Shown one piece after another: positions 1-13,647 of a DNA stretch of 13,647 bases. Origin of the DNA: a bacterium (GTDB taxonomy: Bacteria; SAR324; XYD2-FULL-50-16); contig JAJRZQ010000005.1 in the NCBI GenBank assembly GCA_024275165.1, forward strand, positions 1 through 13,647, given 5' to 3'. Under the pieces are notes generated by a model. The model saw only the letters and a list, made by a program, of their open reading frames with translations. It made no database searches and had not been told where the DNA came from. Made by a program: the position numbers and the translations under genes. How positions within the stretch are numbered: the first letter of the stretch is position 1; the number at the start of each line of letters is the position of its first letter.

Positions 1-639
1 CTCGGCTTCTATCGCGGGATCGCTTAGTTCCGGTTTTTCCTCAAGCTCATCAAAGGGTTCCGGTTCCTCAATTTCATCAAAGGGTTCCGGTTCCTCAATT
101 TCATCAAAGGGTTCCGGTTTTTCCTCAAGATCATCAAAGGGTTCCGGTTCTTCAAGATCCTCGAAGGCATCCTCAGCTTCTATCGCGGGATCGCTTAGTT
201 CCGGTTTTTCCTCAAGCTCATCAAAGGGTTCCGGTTCCTCAATTTCATCAAAGGGTTCCGGTTTTTCCTCAAGATCATCAAAGGGTTCCGGTTTTTCCTC
301 AAGATCATCAAAGGGTTCCACTTCCTCCAGACTTGATTCTTCCTCAAGCTCATCAAGGGATTCCGGTTCTTCAAGATCCTCGAAGGCATCCTCAGCTTCT
401 ATCGCGGGCTCGCCTAATTCCGCTTCTTCCTCCAGCTCCGGCTCTTCGAGGTCATCAAAGGGTTCCGGCTCTTCGAGAACCTCGAAGGGTTCCACTTCCT
501 CCAGACTTGATTCTTCCTCAAGATCATCAAGGGATTCCGGTTCTTCGAGGTCATCGAAGGGTTCCGGTTCTTCAAGGTCATCGAAAGGTTCCACTTCCTC
601 CAGACTTGATTCTTCCTCAAGATCATCAAAGGGTTCTGC
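1..639 (-). repeat. In-frame acidic repeat array (27/30-bp units)
   Basis: Units of 27 or 30 bp encode EEPEPFDDL-like peptides. They sit inside a larger repeat: the segment starting with CTCRGCTTCTATCGCGGG occurs at 1, 172 and 391, offsets of 171 and 219 bp, both multiples of three. Copies are close to identical at the nucleotide level, which points to recent duplication by slippage or unequal recombination. The array continues past the left edge. Confidence 0.85.
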
Positions 640-1005
640 TCCCTCACCCAACTCAGAACCGGCGAGGTCATCAAAGAATTCTTCATCACTCTGTAAAACT
701 TCTAACGAATGAGACTGAAATTCGGCTAAATCTTCTTCTTCCGGCTCTTCCAATACAACATCGTTCTGCTCAGCTTCCACTACAGCCTGCGGGAGAGTAT
801 CACGGAGACGATCCAATTGCTCTGCCTCATTGAGTTGATCGAGCCCTTGGTCTACCAATTCCGGGCCTTCTTCCAAGTGATCAAAGTCATCCTCAGCAAG
901 GTTGTCCCAGTTTTCGGTTTGACCTTCCTCCCCCCTAGCGCTAGGGCTGGGCTGAACCTCATATTTAGCTTTGACGACCTGACGCAGATTAATCAGGTGG
1001 TGCAT
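1..1005 (-). CDS. Acidic repeat protein, 3' end beyond window (partial)
   Basis: Open frame of 335 codons from an ATG at 1005 with no stop before the left edge, so the C-terminus is missing. I do not recognise a family. The first ~120 residues are non-repetitive (start MHHLINLRQVVKAKYE) and already acidic. From about residue 123 onward the protein is built from 9-10-residue units such as EEPEPFDDL and EEKPEPFDDL, broken by longer modules containing EEESSLEEVEPF and PAIEAEDAFEDL. Asp, Glu, Pro and Phe dominate; no signal peptide or membrane segment is visible. The start sits 12 nt after the stop of the upstream receiver-like gene, with a weak AAGGG about 8 nt before it, so the two genes are almost certainly co-transcribed. 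The repeat-rich part is presumably disordered and very negatively charged; a folded domain may lie beyond the window. Confidence is high that it is coding, low on role. Confidence 0.8.
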   Translation of the reverse strand, partial: MHHLINLRQVVKAKYEVQPSPSARGEEGQTENWDNLAEDDFDHLEEGPELVDQGLDQLNEAEQLDRLRDTLPQAVVEAEQNDVVLEEPEEEDLAEFQSHSLEVLQSDEEFFDDLAGSELGEGAEPFDDLEEESSLEEVEPFDDLEEPEPFDDLEEPESLDDLEEESSLEEVEPFEVLEEPEPFDDLEEPELEEEAELGEPAIEAEDAFEDLEEPESLDELEEESSLEEVEPFDDLEEKPEPFDDLEEKPEPFDEIEEPEPFDELEEKPELSDPAIEAEDAFEDLEEPEPFDDLEEKPEPFDEIEEPEPFDEIEEPEPFDELEEKPELSDPAIEAE

Positions 1006-1017
1006 ATTGTCTGCCCT

Positions 1018-2742
1018 TTAATCCTCATCCAGGGCTAGGCTTTGGAAATCAAAGGCTTCATCGGAGGCCTCCTCTTGCAGGCTTAAGGGCTCTTCGGTTT
1101 CATTTTCCTCCCCAGGCAAAACCACCGAATCCCCCTCCATAGGAATCGACAAATCAACCACCTCTTCCCGCTCTAAGGTTTCACCAGATGGAGAGGCAGA
1201 GGCCTCGGCGCGGCTGAAATGATAGCCCTCTTGATCCTTTTCAACCTCAAAGGGAATCTCATCTGAGCTGTCAAAGGGTTGCTCTCCTTGATCCTCAACC
1301 AGATCAACCTCGGCTTCTTTTAAAGGAATCGCCTTGGCTTCGCTGCTCAAAAGATCGTTGGAGTGATCCATTTCCAAGCCTTCCACTTCCACAGACTGAA
1401 AGCTTAAATCTTCCTCCTCATGGAGTTCAAGCTCATCCTCTTCAATGGCGAAGGATTCTGCGTCCGAGTCGAATTCATTAAAGTCTTCCTCCTCATGGAG
1501 TTCAAGCTCATCCTCTTCAATGGCGAAGGATTCTGCGTCCGAGTCGAATTCATTAAAGTCTTCCTCCTCATGGAGTTCAAGCCCATCCTCTTCAATCGCG
1601 GAGGGTTCAAAATCCGAGTCGAATTCATTGAGGTTTTCTTCTTCATAAGCCATATCGAGGGGTTCTTCGGTCACCTCGAGATCAAACAGGCCCTCTTCAC
1701 CCAAAGCGACTTCCAGCGGTGTAGAAGGAACTAAAGAGATCGGGGACTTCGGACTCGGCTTGGCCCCCGGTTGCAGCAATTCGATATCCATATAGGGGAT
1801 TTGCTCTGGAGACTCCGCGATATTTTGCAAGCCTGGGCTAGGTGAACCGGAAGAAAAAAGAACCTCAATCTCCTTAACGGATTTCTTCTGTGAGGAAACC
1901 GGTTTTTCTGGGGAAATATAGGAGTCAGCCTGATAATGGCCCTCCATCAGGGTCATTTCATTGTCTGTCGCTTTGTCGGGTTCTGCGTAACTCTCTTGAA
2001 AGTTCTCATCCAATGAAAGGGCCGCATCCTCAGCGAGTCCTATTGACGCATCGCTGAGTTCAACCTCTGCGAATAAATCGGGCTCTTCTGCGGAGGTTTC
2101 CTCCAAAGGGAGGTCTGAGTCGAGAGCTTCTTCTTCCACCTCCAGGGGGAGGTCTTCCTCATCCAACTCTTCGCTAAAATCAATCGGTTCAATCTCACCA
2201 AAAGAGGGAACCGTGCGAAATTTTTGACTGGGGTCTAGTTCTTCACTCACCTCCTCAAGACTGACTTCTTGAAGTTGAAGCTTCTCTGAGTGGCTGTGCA
2301 ACAGGGTTTTGACCTCAGGGTCCACCAATTCAACCGCATCGAGTTGTTCTTTAATGTGAACCTCACGACCCTGTTCCGCCATGAGTCGGTTCAAATGGTC
2401 TTCCAGCGTGCTAAATTCAAAAGGTTTGCGAATAAACCCAGCGGCACCGAGGCCTTGAAGGTATTCTTCATCCACTCGGTCACGCGCTGAAGTGAGCAGC
2501 AAAACCGAAATCGAGCTCAAAAGCGGGTCCGCTTGGAGTGCCTTTAAAATCGCGTAGTCGTTTTTCGCGTCCTGATTGCTGAGTAGGATGATGTCAGGCT
2601 CAGCTTCGGCAGCAGTGGCGAGAAATTGGGAGGGCGTCTTTTCCACTAAGACCTTCCACCCCCAATCCTCTTCAGGAAGAGCGGACTGGAATAATTCAAG
2701 AACGAGATTGCTCTCTTCCAGTACCAAAAGCTTGTTCAGCAT
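1018..2742 (-). CDS. Pseudo-receiver protein with long acidic repeat tail
   Basis: 574 residues from the ATG at 2742. Residues ~1-120 look like a CheY-type receiver: alternating hydrophobic strands, acidic EES at 9-11, TS at 84-85 and the conserved Lys in RKPF (K106). The phospho-acceptor position, in a context IILLS, is Ser55 instead of Asp, so normal phosphorylation is not expected. Residues ~130-574 are strongly acidic and low in complexity, with three 25-residue repeats at about 370-445. No DNA-binding or enzymatic output domain is seen. An in-frame ATG at 2787 was rejected: it has no Shine-Dalgarno and lies upstream of the -10 of the best promoter. The 2742 ATG has GGTAAGG just before it and begins directly at the receiver fold. 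It is the first gene of an operon with the acidic repeat gene 12 nt downstream. Possible role: a scaffold or localisation protein, as for pseudo-receivers such as FrzS; this is inference. Confidence 0.85.
   Translation of the reverse strand: MLNKLLVLEESNLVLELFQSALPEEDWGWKVLVEKTPSQFLATAAEAEPDIILLSNQDAKNDYAILKALQADPLLSSISVLLLTSARDRVDEEYLQGLGAAGFIRKPFEFSTLEDHLNRLMAEQGREVHIKEQLDAVELVDPEVKTLLHSHSEKLQLQEVSLEEVSEELDPSQKFRTVPSFGEIEPIDFSEELDEEDLPLEVEEEALDSDLPLEETSAEEPDLFAEVELSDASIGLAEDAALSLDENFQESYAEPDKATDNEMTLMEGHYQADSYISPEKPVSSQKKSVKEIEVLFSSGSPSPGLQNIAESPEQIPYMDIELLQPGAKPSPKSPISLVPSTPLEVALGEEGLFDLEVTEEPLDMAYEEENLNEFDSDFEPSAIEEDGLELHEEEDFNEFDSDAESFAIEEDELELHEEEDFNEFDSDAESFAIEEDELELHEEEDLSFQSVEVEGLEMDHSNDLLSSEAKAIPLKEAEVDLVEDQGEQPFDSSDEIPFEVEKDQEGYHFSRAEASASPSGETLEREEVVDLSIPMEGDSVVLPGEENETEEPLSLQEEASDEAFDFQSLALDED
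1409..1633 (-). repeat. Three 75-bp tandem repeats within coding sequence
   Basis: Copies at 1409-1483 and 1484-1558 are identical; the copy at 1559-1633 has diverged. Each encodes 25 residues of the type EEDFNEFDSDAESFAIEEDE. The period is a multiple of three, so copy-number change would keep the frame. Confidence 0.9.
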
Positions 2743-3325
2743 AGCCTTACCAATAAAAATTAGGCGGATAACCAGAGTATAGGGCATGGGGGGAAAAAAT
2801 CAACCAATAGGAATCAGTTTTTCGCCCAAGAAAATGCCCTTGAGGCTTTATTTCCAAGTCAGAGCCGCTAAATCAATCAACCTTGCAACTGTTGGTTTTG
2901 AGGTTGAAAAAATCATCCGCGAAGCCCGCGAAACAAGTCCGGAAGTGGAGCTTTTCAGAGGTTTCTTTATAAAATGAAATAAAATCTAAAAAAAAACTGT
3001 CATGGACTTTACTACCTTGATCCTTATGAAAACTAAATTCGGGATTTTTACCCTGCTTATTACCGAGTTCGTTTATTTTGTTTATCCCCCCGGTTTCAAG
3101 GGCTGGGGCAGCCCCTTCAGCCCAACCCCCAAAAAAGGCCGCAAAAAAACCACCTTAGACCCCCACAGGAACAAGCCCCCCTCTCCAACCTGATCCCAAG
3201 CAGATGACCGGGGTTGTACGGGCCTGGCGAAGAAGGACAATGAACCCGATTCAAGGCATAAGATATGCATTTAGATATCTATAAGGAAAGGAAATTGAAA
3301 GGAATCTCAATTTTAAGGAGGCCAA
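2743..3325. other. Gene-poor intergenic region (583 nt)
   Basis: Open frames here are short, lack convincing ribosome binding sites and have compositions unlike protein. Visible content: the minus-strand promoter near 2776-2803; an A/T-rich block around 2965-2998; a G/C hairpin at 3098-3117 (AAGGGCTG, loop GGG, CAGCCCCTT with one bulge); a C- and A-rich stretch at 3121-3180; and a 10-bp perfect palindrome TAGATATCTA at 3272-3281, about 45 nt before the small gene at 3326. I see no clear promoter for that gene. Confidence 0.6.
2776..2803 (-). promoter_or_regulatory. Predicted sigma70-type promoter of the acidic protein operon
   Basis: Reading the minus strand, TTGATT (2803-2798) is followed after 16 nt by TATACT (2781-2776). 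The expected transcript start near 2769 gives a leader of about 27 nt to the ATG at 2742. It also excludes the longer upstream start at 2787. Match by eye only. Confidence 0.55.
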
Positions 3326-7715: not shown

Positions 7716-9605
7716 ATGAGTAGTGAACCTAAATTTTATCCCCCCCCCAAAGCCTTGGCAGAAAAGGCGAATGTAAAAGAATACGCGAACCTCTATCAAA
7801 GGTCGATTACGGATCGGCAAGGCTTTTGGGCAGAACAGGCCGAAGAGTTGGAATGGTACAAAAAATGGGATCAGGTCTTAGATGACAGCAACCCCCCTTT
7901 TTATCAATGGTTTGTGGGCGCAGAAACCAACATCATTCAAAACGCCATTGACCGCCACCTAACCACGGCAACCCGCAACAAACTCGCTTTCATCTGGGAG
8001 GGGGAACCAGGGGATGTTCGCAGCTTTACCTACTTTGCCTTAAATCAAGAAGTCTCGAAGTTTGCCAATATCTTAAAGTCCCTCGGGGTAAAAAAGGGAG
8101 AAATCGTCACCCTCTATATGCCCCAGGTTCCAGAATTGGTTTTTGCCATGTTGGCCTGCGCCAAAATCGGCGCGCCTCATTCGGTGGTTTATGGGGGGTT
8201 TAGCTCCGAAGCCTTGGCCGGAAGGATTCAAGACGCCGACTCAAAATTTTTGATCACCGCTGATGGGGGCCACCGAGGGGGTAAAAAAACTCGGCTCAAA
8301 GACATCGCCGATCAAGCCATGAAAATCTGCCCTACCCTAGAAATCTGCGTTACGGTGCGACGCACGGGCGAGCCTTGCTATATGGAAGAGGGAAGGGATT
8401 ATTGGTATCACGAGCTGGCCTTGATGCCCTTTGCCCGGCCCTCTTGCCCAACCGAGGTCATGGACGCGGAAGACATGCTCTTTTTACTCTATACCTCCGG
8501 CTCCACAGGGCGGCCCAAAGGCGTGGTGCATACCCATGGGGGTTATCAAGTCTACACCAGCGCCACCCTTAAAATGGTCTTTGACCTCAAGCCGGAAGAC
8601 CGTTTTTGGTGCGCCGCCGACCCGGGATGGATCACCGGACACAGTTACATCGTCTATTCTCCCCTCATCAACGGAGCCACCATCATGCTCTACGAAGGGG
8701 CCCCGGCCTACCCCCACCCTGACCGTTTCTGGCAGATCATCGAAAAATACGGAATCACCATCTTGTACACCAGTCCCACGGCGGTGCGTGGGCTGATGCG
8801 TTTTGGAGAGCAATGGCCGGCGCGTCATGATCTTTCCAGCTTAAGGCTCTTAGGCAGCGTGGGAGAACCCATCAACCCCGAGGCCTGGAAATGGTATCAC
8901 AAAAATATCGGCCAAGGCCGTTGCCCCATCATGGATACCTGGTGGCAAACCGAAACGGGCGGATTTATGATCACCCCCCTGCCCATCACCCCCTTAAAAC
9001 CGGGAAGCGCGACCCAACCCTTTTTCGGCAATGAAGTCGATGTGGTGGATGACGAAGGCAACCCCGTCCCCGCAGGGGAAGAGGGGAACCTCGTCATCCA
9101 GGCCCCCTGGCCGGGCATGGCCCGTACGATTCACCAAGACCCGGAACGCTTTAAGGAGACCTACTGGTCTAAATTCAAAAAGCAGGGCTGGTATTTTGTG
9201 GGGGACGCGGCCAAAAAAGACGAAGATGGATACTTTTGGATTATTGGCCGCATTGACGATGTGATCAAGGTTTCCGGGTATCGCCTCGGCACCGCTGAAG
9301 TGGAAAGCGCCCTGGTGAGTCACGAAGCGGTGAGCGAGGCGGCGGCCATTGCCCTGCCCCATGAGATCAAAGGCAATGCCATTCATGCCTATGTGATTTT
9401 GACCACGGGTTTTAAGGGCAGCGACAGCCTAGCCCGCGACTTAATTAAACAGGTGGGCAAGGTCATGGGGCCCATTGCCCGCCCCGAGGAGATTTGTTTT
9501 GTGGAAGCCTTACCCAAAACCCGCAGCGGCAAGATTATGCGCCGAGTCTTAAAAGCGCGGGCCTTAGGGCAAGACGAGGGAGACCTCTCTACCTTAGAAG
9601 AATAG
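7716..9605 (+). CDS. acs: Acetyl-CoA synthetase, AMP-forming
   Basis: 629 residues, within the usual ~630-655 range. It activates acetate with ATP to acetyl-AMP and then acetyl-CoA (EC 6.2.1.1) in the cytoplasm. Motifs are complete: P-loop YTSGSTGRPKG at 259-269, DTWWQTETGG at 407-416 (Trp410 fits the residue that restricts the pocket to acetate), YFVGDAA at 493-499, hinge region GRIDDVIKVSG at 511-521 and the C-terminal PKTRSGK at 600-606 with catalytic Lys606, the target of reversible acetylation in well-studied homologues. The ATG is preceded by AAGGAG with a 7-nt spacer. It is divergent from oadGAB across 561 nt and convergent with the TerB-like gene at 9619, only 13 nt beyond its stop. 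GYRLG replaces the common GHRLG; this is minor. Propionate use as a side reaction cannot be excluded. Confidence 0.96.
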   Translation: MSSEPKFYPPPKALAEKANVKEYANLYQRSITDRQGFWAEQAEELEWYKKWDQVLDDSNPPFYQWFVGAETNIIQNAIDRHLTTATRNKLAFIWEGEPGDVRSFTYFALNQEVSKFANILKSLGVKKGEIVTLYMPQVPELVFAMLACAKIGAPHSVVYGGFSSEALAGRIQDADSKFLITADGGHRGGKKTRLKDIADQAMKICPTLEICVTVRRTGEPCYMEEGRDYWYHELALMPFARPSCPTEVMDAEDMLFLLYTSGSTGRPKGVVHTHGGYQVYTSATLKMVFDLKPEDRFWCAADPGWITGHSYIVYSPLINGATIMLYEGAPAYPHPDRFWQIIEKYGITILYTSPTAVRGLMRFGEQWPARHDLSSLRLLGSVGEPINPEAWKWYHKNIGQGRCPIMDTWWQTETGGFMITPLPITPLKPGSATQPFFGNEVDVVDDEGNPVPAGEEGNLVIQAPWPGMARTIHQDPERFKETYWSKFKKQGWYFVGDAAKKDEDGYFWIIGRIDDVIKVSGYRLGTAEVESALVSHEAVSEAAAIALPHEIKGNAIHAYVILTTGFKGSDSLARDLIKQVGKVMGPIARPEEICFVEALPKTRSGKIMRRVLKARALGQDEGDLSTLEE

Positions 9606-9618
9606 CTCTTCTTTTCGA

Positions 9619-10014
9619 TTAGGCGGAAAAAAGCCGATTCGCCAAGTCGATGTATTCTTGCCTCCTTGCCAAATCCAGCGGCAAGGGGGCTAGTCGCAAA
9701 TCCTTGGCGTAGGTTGCCAACCCTTCAAGCTCTCCCACTGCTTTCTCCTCATCGCTGAGAGCCATGGCAGTGAGAGCCAACAAACACAACCTTTTTGCCT
9801 CCTCTGAAGAAAGAGTCGATAAATTCGGCTCGCTCCCGCTGGCGGCAAGGGCACGAAAATGAGCCTCTTGAGCTAGAGTAAGCCCGCTTAAACGAATCCA
9901 ATTTTTTAAAAGCTCTTGCTCGGCAGGGAAGAGTTTTTTATCCGCAATCGCCATTTTAAAGGCGGCATGCAGGATCAATTGTAAGTCCTTTAGGTTGATG
10001 TTGGTTCGGGGCAT
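9619..10014 (-). CDS. TerB-like domain protein (131 aa)
   Basis: All-helical, compact protein. The pattern LILHAAFKMAIADKKLFPAEQELL near the N-terminus and CLLALTAMALSDEEKAVGELEGL later is the duplicated '(A)D..(h)...E' helical motif of the TerB/DUF533-like superfamily, whose members bind metal or take part in envelope stress and tellurite-associated systems. No partner ter genes are present, so 'tellurite resistance' should not be assumed. It lies 26 nt downstream of a second TerB-like gene in the same direction, probably one transcript. No strong Shine-Dalgarno precedes the ATG. The stop sits 13 nt from the end of the convergent acs gene. Confidence 0.78.
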   Translation of the reverse strand: MPRTNINLKDLQLILHAAFKMAIADKKLFPAEQELLKNWIRLSGLTLAQEAHFRALAASGSEPNLSTLSSEEAKRLCLLALTAMALSDEEKAVGELEGLATYAKDLRLAPLPLDLARRQEYIDLANRLFSA

Positions 10015-10040: not shown

Positions 10041-10487
10041 TTATAAGAGATCGAAATCACTCACCTGCTTGCTTTGAAGTTGTTTGGGTCGGTCTCTTCG
10101 CAAAAGCCTCAGCATGGTTGCCTCGGCTTTTTCATAGGTGAGGCGGTGCAGGTTGATGGTTCCCACTTGAAGCCGCTTTGCCAGGTGGTGAAATAAAGCG
10201 AGTTCTTCTTCTGCCAGTTGGCCATCCACCAAAGCGACCGTCGCCAAGGCGAGGAGAAAGGCTTTTTTGGCTTTCTCGCTGGTCAACTGACTTGCCAAGG
10301 CCGTGATATCCTCCGCAATCGGCTCGGTATATTCATCCACCGCAAAGGGTTCGATCCCCGCGGCAACGCGAATGGATTCCAGCAGATTTACCTCTGTCTC
10401 CACCACTTGGTTATCCTGCTGGGCCATTTTAATGGCTCCCTTGAGCAAGATGAGAGCCTCTGCTTTTTCAATTTGAGCCATGATCAT
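10041..10487 (-). CDS. TerB-like domain protein (148 aa)
   Basis: Same fold as the neighbour at 9619. An N-terminal ALILLKGAIKMAQQDNQVVETEVNLL helix pair and FLLALATVALVDGQLAEEELALF are typical TerB motifs, here with a clearer D-G-x-(hydrophobic)-x-x-E-E signature. The C-terminal tail is basic then acidic (LRRDRPKQ ... SDFDLL). Two in-frame ATGs, at 10487 and 10481, are possible; neither has a good Shine-Dalgarno. The second gives a more usual MAQIEKAE start. A promoter candidate lies just upstream. The tandem arrangement with a divergent paralogue suggests duplication and possibly a heteromeric partner; the function is unknown. Confidence 0.8.
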   Translation of the reverse strand: MIMAQIEKAEALILLKGAIKMAQQDNQVVETEVNLLESIRVAAGIEPFAVDEYTEPIAEDITALASQLTSEKAKKAFLLALATVALVDGQLAEEELALFHHLAKRLQVGTINLHRLTYEKAEATMLRLLRRDRPKQLQSKQVSDFDLL

Positions 10488-10570: not shown

Positions 10571-11914
10571 TTAAAGTCGTTGCAGCTTTAAATATTGACT
10601 CAAGGCCTGCCTAGAAAAACCCAACATCTCAGCCGCTAAGGTTTGATTTTGGTTGGTTTGCTCTAGGGCCGCCTGAATAATGGCATCCTTAGCGTCTTTT
10701 AGGTTGAGGCTGGAAAGGGTGAGAAGGCGGCCCTCGGGTTGCTTGAGCTGTTTTACTTCCTCCCCCAGCAGGGGCTTGAACAGAGCGAGAGAAAGCATGC
10801 CTTGCCGATGTTGTTCCATCGCGCTTTCAATCAATCCCTTCAATTCCTTTACATTTCCGGGGAAAAAATAGGATTTTAAAATAGAATAAAGCTCCTTGGG
10901 AACAGTGGGCTTTTTCTTTTTTTGGGCTCTCGCCGCGTTCATCAAAAAATGCTCGACTAAAAGCCGCAGGTCGTTTTTGCGTTGCCGCAGCGGGGGAAGC
11001 ATCACCGAATAGGCGCTAATCAGGTGATAGAGATCCCTGCGAAACCGCCCCTCTTCCATGAGATCTCGAAAATCGCGCCCGGCCGCAACCAACAGTCGGC
11101 ATTGATGTTCCTGCAGCGGATTCGGCGTGCCTGGGGTGGGCGTGACAAGGCGCAAAAAAAGGGTTTGGCATTTTGCGGAAAGTTGATCCACATCCTTAAA
11201 CAACAGCGTCCCCTGTTGGGCCTGTCGAAAAAGACTGTTTTGGGAACTAAACAAAAACTCCTGCAAAATGCCAGGATTGACCCCCTTCAGACTCTGCGCC
11301 AAAAAAGGCCCCGGTCTACCGCTCGCCTTATGAATGGACTCAGCCAAGGTTTGCTTGCCTACGCCAGGTTCGCCTTGCAGTAATAAGGTTTCCTGACTTG
11401 GGGCCAAGGCTTCGCAATAGCGAAAAATCGAATCCATTACCGGGTCTTGCGAGAAAAAAGAAGCAAAGCAAGTGGTCTTGCGCTGTTTATCCGCGGCGAT
11501 CTCTTTATATTTTAAAATACTGTTTTCCCTTTTTAAGGCGAGCAACTCTAAAGCCTTGGTCGCGGTGGCGATTAAACGAGGGGTGTCGATCGGTTTCAGC
11601 AGATAGTCAAAAACCCCTGCATGGATTGCTTCCAACCCCAATTGATTTTGTTCCGTCTCCAGGCACAAAATCAGAGGGATGTCTTGTGCCCGCTCCACGG
11701 TTTGTTGAATCCAGTCGGCTCGATGGGCCTGACCTGAAGGAACCTCAAAAACCACAAAAGCGAAATGCTGCTTGGAGATCAGCTCATGGAAATTGGAAAA
11801 ATCACCAAGCTGCTTGATATTATGCAAACCATTGAGACTGAAAGTCAGCTCCAACACCTTACGGATTACATCGTCTTCAATCGCCAGCAAAATGGGTTGT
11901 TCTGAATTCAGCAT
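10571..11914 (-). CDS. Degenerate NtrC-type AAA+ regulator (pseudo-receiver, no GAFTGA loop)
   Basis: 447 residues in the order receiver (1-~125), AAA+ (~150-385), Fis-type helix-turn-helix (~405-447). Several hallmark residues are altered. The receiver phospho-acceptor is Glu57 (VVFEV) instead of Asp, while EDD at 13-15 and Lys107 (LLKP) remain. Walker A is intact (GEPGVGKQ, 181-188). The sigma54-contacting GAFTGA loop is absent, with FSSQNSLFRQA at 222-232 in its place. Walker B, usually TLFLDE, is TLLFKD at 236-241. Arg residues of GRFRRDL (289-295) and the PPLRQR motif are kept; GNVREL is GNVKEL. The HTH (TLAAEMLGFSRQALSQYL) looks functional. It probably binds DNA and perhaps ATP but does not activate sigma54 in the standard way. 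The ATG has a CGGAG 5-6 nt upstream. It follows the PAS/CBS protein gene by 123 nt in the same direction. Confidence 0.9.
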   Translation of the reverse strand: MLNSEQPILLAIEDDVIRKVLELTFSLNGLHNIKQLGDFSNFHELISKQHFAFVVFEVPSGQAHRADWIQQTVERAQDIPLILCLETEQNQLGLEAIHAGVFDYLLKPIDTPRLIATATKALELLALKRENSILKYKEIAADKQRKTTCFASFFSQDPVMDSIFRYCEALAPSQETLLLQGEPGVGKQTLAESIHKASGRPGPFLAQSLKGVNPGILQEFLFSSQNSLFRQAQQGTLLFKDVDQLSAKCQTLFLRLVTPTPGTPNPLQEHQCRLLVAAGRDFRDLMEEGRFRRDLYHLISAYSVMLPPLRQRKNDLRLLVEHFLMNAARAQKKKKPTVPKELYSILKSYFFPGNVKELKGLIESAMEQHRQGMLSLALFKPLLGEEVKQLKQPEGRLLTLSSLNLKDAKDAIIQAALEQTNQNQTLAAEMLGFSRQALSQYLKLQRL

Positions 11915-11939
11915 ACAAACTCCGTTACGATATACCCTT

Positions 11940-11968
11940 AGAATAGCTTTGCTGGACTTTCAGCGCAA
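11940..11968 (-). promoter_or_regulatory. Predicted promoter of the NtrC-like gene
   Basis: Minus strand: TTGCGC (11968-11963), 17-nt spacer, TATTCT (11945-11940). It lies 26 nt or more before the ATG at 11914, in the 123-nt gap after the upstream gene. Read-through from that gene is also possible. Confidence 0.4.
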
Positions 11969-12037
11969 GAAAAATTGACAACAATCCAAAATTCCAAGCT
12001 CAAATTCACGGTTTCAACCCTTTGGGGCCTCAACGGT

Positions 12038-13039
12038 TTACTTCTCCAAACTCTGCTCTAAAGCGCATTTAGACATTTGCGACAAGGAGGATAAGCGGAC
12101 CTCGATTTCTTTCATTTGCATCAACAGTTCACGGTTAATCTTGTGTTCCGGGAGATTGTTCGGGATAGTATACAAATTGGCGGTCAACGCCTTTAAGGGA
12201 GAAATCAAGGTTTGCAACTCCTGATTGAGCTGCTTTAAGACAATGCGCGAGGCATTTTGATACTCCAATGCACCGGAAAACTCTTTTTTGGTATCTTGAA
12301 AAAAAATGAGGTTGACTAAAAGTTTCTGAGGTAATTGCAAGATCCGCAACTCCCCTTGCCAAGGAAGAAAGACCGGCTTCAATTTGCAGGAAAAACAAAC
12401 CTCTTCTCCTACCGCGCGACGCAGATTGTTTTGCAGTAAAACATAATCGGACTCCGCAATGATCTGACAGATTTTTTTTAAGGCCTCTAAAGGAAAAAGC
12501 AGACCCGCTTGATCATTAACCTCCACCAAATTGCCTTGAAAGGAAAAGAGACATTGCGCATGGTGAGATTGTTTCCACAGGCGATACCATTGCTGTGCCT
12601 CCAGTTCATGGTTCAATTTGGCTTCTTGAAACTGAGAAAGAAGTTGTTCTTGTTCGCGCAAACGGGTTATAAATCGAATCTGAGCCGATTCGATCTCTCG
12701 GGTGAGAGAGCTTACCGCCAGTTCCAAGGTCTTTTTCAAAACCGGACCTAAAAAAACTTCTTGGTTATAAACCAAGCCTAAAGGAGCGTTTTTGAGCCGC
12801 ATTAAGGCGACCCGGCAGTCTAGGCTAGCGGCCAAATTCGGGGCGGGAATGGCCAAATCGGCGGCCAGACCATTTTCTACCCTTTGCACCTGAGATTTGC
12901 TGATATAACCTAAGGGGTTGCCTATTTCATCCATGACTAAGGCATAGCCCTGCGAGCGCAAAAGAGGCTTGAGCAGAGAAAGCTTGTCTCGACTATCCAC
13001 CTGGACAAAAGGTATACTGAGAAGAAAGCGCGTTTCCAT
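12038..13039 (-). CDS. CBS/PAS-like sensor protein ending in a kinase-like helix without His
   Basis: 333 residues, no signal peptide or membrane helix, so cytoplasmic. Residues ~10-55 resemble half of a CBS domain (SQGYALVMDEIGNPLGYIS). About 105-155 is a charged helix, likely a coiled coil. About 158-250 reads as a PAS-like fold (AQCLFSFQGNLVEVNDQAG ... LLVNLIFFQDT). About 255-330 is helical; LNQELQTLISPLKAL (271-285) resembles the histidine-kinase dimerisation helix motif SHELRTPL, but the phospho-acceptor His is Gln273 and there is no ATPase domain afterwards. It is therefore a kinase-shaped protein without kinase chemistry, possibly a ligand sensor that dimerises. The start has GGGAG only 2 nt from the ATG, which is close. 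The next gene is the degenerate NtrC-like regulator, a natural candidate partner. Domain calls are by eye; CBS and PAS are moderate. Confidence 0.75.
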   Translation of the reverse strand: METRFLLSIPFVQVDSRDKLSLLKPLLRSQGYALVMDEIGNPLGYISKSQVQRVENGLAADLAIPAPNLAASLDCRVALMRLKNAPLGLVYNQEVFLGPVLKKTLELAVSSLTREIESAQIRFITRLREQEQLLSQFQEAKLNHELEAQQWYRLWKQSHHAQCLFSFQGNLVEVNDQAGLLFPLEALKKICQIIAESDYVLLQNNLRRAVGEEVCFSCKLKPVFLPWQGELRILQLPQKLLVNLIFFQDTKKEFSGALEYQNASRIVLKQLNQELQTLISPLKALTANLYTIPNNLPEHKINRELLMQMKEIEVRLSSLSQMSKCALEQSLEK

Positions 13040-13136: not shown

Positions 13137-13647
13137 TTACACACTGTGCAGCAAGGTGAAAATCTCCGGGCAAGCTGCCTTGGTAGCCAGCCCTAAAGGG
13201 GTTTTGCCCCGATAACCCCTCTGGCGTGGGTTTGCCTTAAAAGCAAGGAGCAATTCGACCAGAGGCAGGTTTTGGGTTAAAACCGCTTGGCTCAAGGGGG
13301 TTTCTCCAGCCAAGGTGCAAAGGTTTGGGTTGGCTCCCTTTTGCAAAAGGAGCTGCGCTAGGGGAAAATTATTTTCTCGAATGGCCCGAAACAAAGGGGT
13401 TTGTTTTTCCCGATCCGGAATGTCGATGGACGCTCCACTTTTCAGTAAGGGAGGCAAGCAGGGTAAATGATCGCCAAAACAGCTCCAGGTAAAGGCGCTC
13501 CACCCAGAAGCATCGACAGAATCAGCCTGGGCGCCTAAATCGAGCAATGTGGTCAGACTATCCAGGTTCCCTTGATAGGCGGCGCACATCAAGGGGGTAA
13601 ATCCATCGCTGTCGGCAAGGTTGACGAGGTCGCCCGCCCTGGCCCCC
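13137..13647 (-). CDS. Ankyrin repeat protein, 5' end beyond window (partial)
   Basis: The frame stays open from the stop at 13137 to the right edge. The residues upstream of the first in-frame ATG (AGDLVNLADSDGFTPL) complete a perfect ankyrin repeat, so the true N-terminus lies outside. About 170 residues are visible with five repeats: GFTPLMCAAYQGNLDSLTTL, GWSAFTWSCFGDHLPCLPPL, KQTPLFRAIRENNFPLAQLL, GETPLSQAVLTQNLPLVELL and a terminal GKTPLGLATKAACPEIFTLL. Consensus TPL and the inter-repeat GA.P/D turns are clear; repeat 2 is less regular. It ends directly after the last repeat with no further domain. Ankyrin arrays bind protein partners; no target can be told. It runs in the same direction as the PAS/CBS gene, 97 nt upstream of it. 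Confidence 0.9.
   Translation of the reverse strand, partial: GARAGDLVNLADSDGFTPLMCAAYQGNLDSLTTLLDLGAQADSVDASGWSAFTWSCFGDHLPCLPPLLKSGASIDIPDREKQTPLFRAIRENNFPLAQLLLQKGANPNLCTLAGETPLSQAVLTQNLPLVELLLAFKANPRQRGYRGKTPLGLATKAACPEIFTLLHSV

Follow-up and report, generated by a model that had tools for sequence, protein, structure and literature searches.

We wanted to know whether two adjacent minus-strand genes in the 13,647-nucleotide stretch analysed here (the window, contig C37 of a 2.69-Mb draft genome that is 98% complete) encode a former two-component pair in which, as the initial annotation had proposed, the kinase lost its His and the regulator its Asp in concert, leaving direct sensor-receiver contact as the means of signalling. 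Comparisons were made with a sample of one genome per genus. The reading that we favour, and hold to be the probable one, is that the regulator is a DNA-binding remnant, independent of phosphorylation and of sigma-54, that has been inherited together with an ankyrin gene and, in two genera, with the sensor-like protein, a possible contact partner.

The locus and its ankyrin gene

As shown in Table 1, an ankyrin ORF running in from the contig end is followed on the minus strand by ORFs of 333 and 447 aa and by two TerB-like ORFs, and an acetyl-CoA-synthetase-like gene (7716-9605) faces this run. Both central ORFs are intact and on the same strand, with the ankyrin ORF upstream and the TerB-like ORFs downstream, just as annotated. 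After dinucleotide shuffling, the frame was open in 0/2000 cases for the regulator gene and in 0/2000 for the sensor-like gene. Given the gaps flanking the latter (97 bases before, 123 bases after), a single transcript is no more than putative.

Table 1. Features of the locus, with positions in the window or in the regulator protein
Feature	Position	Strand	Evidence or remark
XRE-HTH/ankyrin gene, 3' part	13137..13647	(-)	ORF cut at contig end; rest on C25
Sensor-like protein, 333 aa	12038..13039	(-)	intact ORF; CBS/PAS labels via weak matches of the G004 homologue
Degenerate NtrC-family regulator, 447 aa	10571..11914	(-)	profile search, alignment, AF2 model
Pseudo-receiver	regulator aa ~7-120	(-)	profile, alignment, AF2
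Glu57 codon at phospho-Asp position	11744..11746	(-)	alignment
AAA+ without GAFTGA or Walker B	regulator aa ~155-303	(-)	profile, alignment
Codons 240-241, Lys-Asp replacing Walker B Asp-Glu	11192..11197	(-)	alignment
Lid	regulator aa 304-385	(-)	profile, alignment
Fis-type HTH, recognition helix SRQALSQ	regulator aa 403-443 = 10586..10708	(-)	profile, hhalign
TerB-like ORF 1	10041..10487	(-)	neighbour, not conserved member
TerB-like ORF 2	9619..10014	(-)	neighbour, not conserved member

The 5' part of the ankyrin ORF lies on contig C25 (L216:8485 onward), the end of which is identical to the window end over exactly 141 bases. The shared end is as long as an assembly k-mer, and the join is inferred from the contig ends; it is supported because the frame stays open across the overlap. 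The joined protein has 340 aa and an N-terminal XRE-type HTH (HTH_3 E 1e-5), and upstream of its gene lies a divergent Trypco1 gene (48.5 bits). A Trypco1-like gene diverges from the XRE-ankyrin gene in four genera (L216:8035-8352, L151:6206-6553, L202:9434-9784, and L217:2991-3320), the Pfam assignment coming from that of the window genome alone. The naming of Trypco domains goes back to NTP-dependent conflict systems (PMC7159879). By eye, the same XRE-like N-terminal domain looks fused to a STAND/NACHT-like NTPase in another genome (L209:1474-2952, G005:C18), and a WD40-repeat-like ORF adjoins this fusion.

Losses in the NtrC-like regulator

The order of receiver, AAA+ sigma-54 domain, lid, and Fis-type HTH identifies the 447-aa protein as a member of the NtrC family by descent (Sigma54_activat 66.5 bits, AAA_lid_14 58.3, HTH_8 24.8; Response_reg 30.0 in one scan, against a cut-off of 30.2, and 33.4 in another). 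It aligns with intact orthologues over 439 columns (hhalign E 8e-72), and its AF2 model (mean pLDDT 83.6) predicts a receiver fold. We aligned it with 12 same-class regulators and with 19 from the genome collection, the 19 intact comparators being drawn from many phyla. The phospho-site, read off the alignment as Asp in 19/19 comparators, is Glu57 in the window regulator; the acid pair is replaced by Ile12/Glu13 and the switch Thr by Leu85, and of the receiver site Lys107 alone survives. In the AAA+ domain, the P-loop GxxGxGK is kept, Lys240-Asp241 stands at the Walker B position, and the GAFTGA-bearing stretch is deleted just upstream (in the gene) of these two codons. Among the aligned regulators, each of these five changes is unique to the window regulator. 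The protein is scored as a receiver and carries Glu57, as befits an Asp-less pseudo-receiver; it has neither the phospho-acceptor Asp, acid pair, and switch Thr of a functional response regulator nor the GAFTGA loop and Walker B DE of a bEBP. Because of these catalytic losses, it should be neither phosphorylated nor able to drive sigma-54. The window genome encodes sigma-54 (202 bits) as well as paralogues of the regulator in which GAFTGA is intact, and the loss is therefore specific. The annotation as an Asp-less, NtrC-like regulator was therefore correct and understated: the losses are broader than first noted, they are predicted to disable two separate functions, and the sequence indicates a phosphorylation-incompetent protein.

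Glu at the phospho-site could also be read as a phosphomimic that locks the receiver in its active state and yields an always-on NtrC-type activator, and Glu at this position does activate NtrC (Klose 1993, as cited in PMC4395418). However, the acid pair, switch Thr, and Walker B are lost and GAFTGA is deleted, so that ATP-driven sigma-54 activation is not expected; we consider constitutive activation very improbable.

Intact regulators are found in the same family. The best matches come from G009, G007, G001, G006, and G003, at E 1e-79 to 1e-64; beyond the last members of the orthologue group, near 1e-57, the next matches stand at ~1e-42. Asp57, Walker B DE, and GA(F/Y)TGA are kept in G001, G007, and G009. 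The regulator has as its immediate neighbour a kinase with HE(I/L/V)N(N/Q)P in G009, G007, G006, G008, G003 (C43), G042, and G027 (C462), and none is visible on the 4-kb contig that carries the intact regulator of G001. In a full-length tree, the window regulator is sister to G001/G007/G009 (81/92) on a branch of 3.38, about nine times the median of 0.39. By eye, the intact orthologous pair at L050 and L049 adjoins rubredoxin/rubrerythrin-like genes, with cytochrome-bd-like genes too in G007, hinting at an ancestral redox role.

The decay is selective by domain. The window regulator shares with G001, G007, and G006 25-27% identity in the receiver, 32-35% in the AAA domain, 41-49% in the lid, and 32-44% in the HTH, compared with 44-56%, 59-74%, 48-60%, and 35-65%, respectively, between intact orthologues. 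By this measure its receiver and ATPase have dropped to roughly half the intact-orthologue identity, and the lid and, less clearly, the HTH near the intact level. The spared lid and HTH together with the open frames, as an identity comparison and not a dN/dS test, speak for selection on the DNA-binding end.

The sensor-like protein and the cassette across genera

The 333-aa protein, annotated as a His-less kinase-like sensor, has a CBS-like N-terminal half, a long coiled coil, a PAS-like part, and a two-helix C-terminus. The CBS and PAS labels derive from its homologue in G004, where both matches are sub-threshold (CBS E 0.008, 17.0 bits against a cut-off of 24; PAS E 0.08-0.1). Searched whole against Pfam, the window protein gave no match at E<=10, CBS included; searched in pieces, it gave nothing relevant, and NCBIfam returned no match. 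A HATPase segment is absent, and hhalign against eight real kinases of neighbouring loci gave E 0.087 on 12 columns, so that the DHp/HisKA plus HATPase_c combination of a histidine kinase or pseudo-histidine kinase was not found. A His-box-like string (LNQELQTLISP) is seen by eye only, and a single-sequence AF2 model (pLDDT 43) has a pair of long helices at the C-terminus besides a long coiled coil, a low-confidence prediction compatible with a DHp hairpin or any coiled coil. Since neither hhalign nor the Pfam and NCBIfam searches supported it, we rejected the kinase assignment; the idea, formed by eye, that the C-terminus of the G004 homologue is a HATPase remnant likewise drew no support from hhalign or Pfam pieces. 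The supposedly exact reciprocal losses of sensor and regulator are unproven because the sensor-like protein is not demonstrably a former kinase.

At the standard threshold the sensor has no homologues, a scan of the genome contigs included. A search for co-conservation did find regulator, sensor, and ankyrin genes in the same order in a second genus, G004, where a divergent Trypco1-like gene and an ankyrin gene precede a 396-aa sensor-like ORF and a 417-aa regulator ORF. The sensor match is sub-threshold in the genome search (E 0.02), yet syntenic; pairwise, the two sensors share 25% over 120 residues (E 3e-5), a homology that is weak by itself and leans on synteny. The regulators match over lid and HTH (pairwise E 2e-15), the only parts recognisable in G004 (hhalign E 2e-14). 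We abandoned tree placement of the G004 regulator, its branch (6.0 to 6.4) being too extreme, and its orthology therefore rests on best-hit clade, hhalign, and synteny: in a reverse search its best family matches outside G004 were G009, G007, the window, G001, and G006, which supports orthology to the window clade.

In a third genus, G002, the ankyrin gene is followed ~200 bases on by a 211-aa ORF in which only a C-terminal Fis-type HTH is recognisable (HTH_8 33.7 bits, hhalign E 5e-12); its N-terminus gave no match in Pfam or hhalign searches, and no sensor gene lies between the two. Genomes with only one member of the pair had been named as evidence against the proposed module, and G002, with ankyrin gene and regulator remnant and no sensor, is such a genome. 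The G002 and G004 cassettes share their genomic place, with MazG, FtsJ, HslV, and HslU on one side and MFS and Tpx-like genes on the other; in G001, the Trypco1/ankyrin pair stands alone, followed by flagellar-like genes. The cassette defined by synteny is a Trypco1 gene divergent from an XRE-HTH/ankyrin gene, an optional CBS/PAS-like sensor, and a remnant regulator, with ankyrin and regulator in three genera and the sensor in two. The one part common to all three degenerate regulators is the Fis-type HTH; a receiver was not detected in G004 or G002 by Pfam or hhalign.

The TerB pair, annotated as part of the module on assignments that are themselves weak (22 and 28 bits), is excluded by synteny: in G002 the TerB genes lie ~14 kb from the cassette, and in G004 they are on a different contig. 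In G002, too, a TerB pair and an acetyl-CoA-synthetase-like gene face each other (L067:5358-8262, G002:C27; the latter gene is 76% identical to that of the window), as a conserved block apart from the regulator cassette.

A neighbouring marker groups G000 (the window genome), G002, and G004 together (91/94). As they form one group, one origin suffices; the simplest account is that the cassette arose once and that G002 later lost the sensor and the AAA+ domain. One could argue instead that the cassette is under relaxed selection and heading for loss, its genes having no important present function. The very long branches of the window and G004 regulators and the weak cross-genus identity fit such a course, and the losses in G002 could reflect the gradual disappearance of a gene of little use. 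Nonetheless, frames of 1.0-1.3 kb are still open despite HslU proteins only 62-70% identical between these genera, lid and HTH are spared, and gene order is kept; we regard mere decay as unlikely.

An exact 16-mer, TGTCCGGTTTTTGTCC, lies in the space that separates the ankyrin gene from the gene after it in both G004 (L151:7895-7960) and G002 (L202:8150-8212), accompanied at both sites by further TGTCC repeats and CTCGAAA, and is possibly an operator. We rejected it as a family-wide operator: the window genome has no copy, and of the three exact copies in the family one lies inside an unrelated ORF of G001.

Proposed action of the remnant and its known relatives

The model of a kinase and regulator that changed together to direct contact draws on several observations: two genera have the genes side by side, kinases adjoin the orthologous regulators, Glu is the commonest D-site replacement in Asp-less receivers (PMC12632262), and DhaR, a GAFTGA-less relative, is controlled by binding dihydroxyacetone kinase, as the title of a paper cited in PMC3162934 states. 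Against it, the sensor has no kinase homology, G002 keeps a regulator remnant with the sensor absent, and a conserved contact surface is doubtful in G004 and G002 because no receiver was detected there. Further, the sigma-54 machinery was lost as well, a loss that replacing phosphotransfer by protein contact would not predict. Direct sensor-receiver contact as such may occur; the concerted model as a whole we judge to be improbable.

We return to the preferred reading, a co-inherited DNA-binding remnant. From the losses and the retained HTH, which are sequence evidence, we infer its functional consequences, partner contacts, and DNA target as follows. The ancestor would have been an ordinary sigma-54-dependent two-component response regulator, in which phosphorylation and sigma-54 activation were presumably lost in the common ancestor of the three genera and Fis-type HTH DNA binding was kept. 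Without being phosphorylated, the remnant may bind DNA, either repressing transcription or modulating it in a sigma-70-type manner, its own cassette being the probable target. How active it is would depend on how strongly it is expressed and on its contacts, both with the ankyrin protein and, in genera that have it, with the sensor-like protein, which may bind a small ligand through its CBS/PAS-like part. A bolder version, in which control of the NtrC remnant passed from the ancestral kinase to the XRE-ankyrin protein in a conserved cassette free of phosphorylation and sigma-54, with at least three successive stages of domain loss within one family, we offer only tentatively. In three related genera the regulator has been kept downstream of the same ankyrin gene, dismantled to different extents. 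The natural series runs from intact regulators (G001/G007/G009) through loss of catalysis (the window) to proteins in which only lid and HTH (G004) or only the HTH (G002) can be recognised; it lets one read directly in which order the domains went and which partners stayed, as a signalling protein is pared down stepwise to one that just binds DNA.

About 2% of bacterial receiver domains lack Asp, and how bacterial pseudo-receivers switch was called a mystery in a 2025 review (PMC12632262). The window itself holds a second Asp-less receiver (1018-2787, minus strand; Ser at the phospho-site by eye, PDIILLSNQD; Response_reg 27.7 bits, just below cut-off) fused to long acidic low-complexity repeats, and adjoining it a cut-off ORF of acidic EPFDDLEE-type repeats (1-1005, minus strand) with no family match in NCBIfam.

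Among the known systems nearest to this one are the intact orthologous pairs at L049, L050, L052, L054, L055, and L057-L060, whose regulators share ~28-35% full-length identity and the same domain order with the window regulator but keep Asp, Walker B, GAFTGA, and an intact His kinase next door. DivL-type pseudo-histidine kinases resemble the sensor-like protein by eye only, in a two-helix C-terminus with a His-box-like string, and the latter is without detectable HisKA or HATPase homology. The pseudo-receivers of FrzS, RitR, AmiR, HP1043, and NblR resemble that of the window in a fold (predicted here) without catalytic residues, a kept Lys, and Glu at the D site; unlike them, the window receiver is joined to an NtrC-type output that is itself degenerate, and it has intact-receiver orthologues in the same family. 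Finally, TyrR, DhaR, HupR, and VpsR share sigma-54-activator descent with a GAFTGA region changed or deleted, and TyrR, DhaR, and HupR are reported to be sigma-70 dependent (PMC3162934). By analogy with these three, the remnant may act in a sigma-70-type manner or as a repressor; unlike all four, the window regulator has also lost Walker B and has a dead receiver, and its counterparts in the sister genera no longer have a recognisable AAA+ domain at all.
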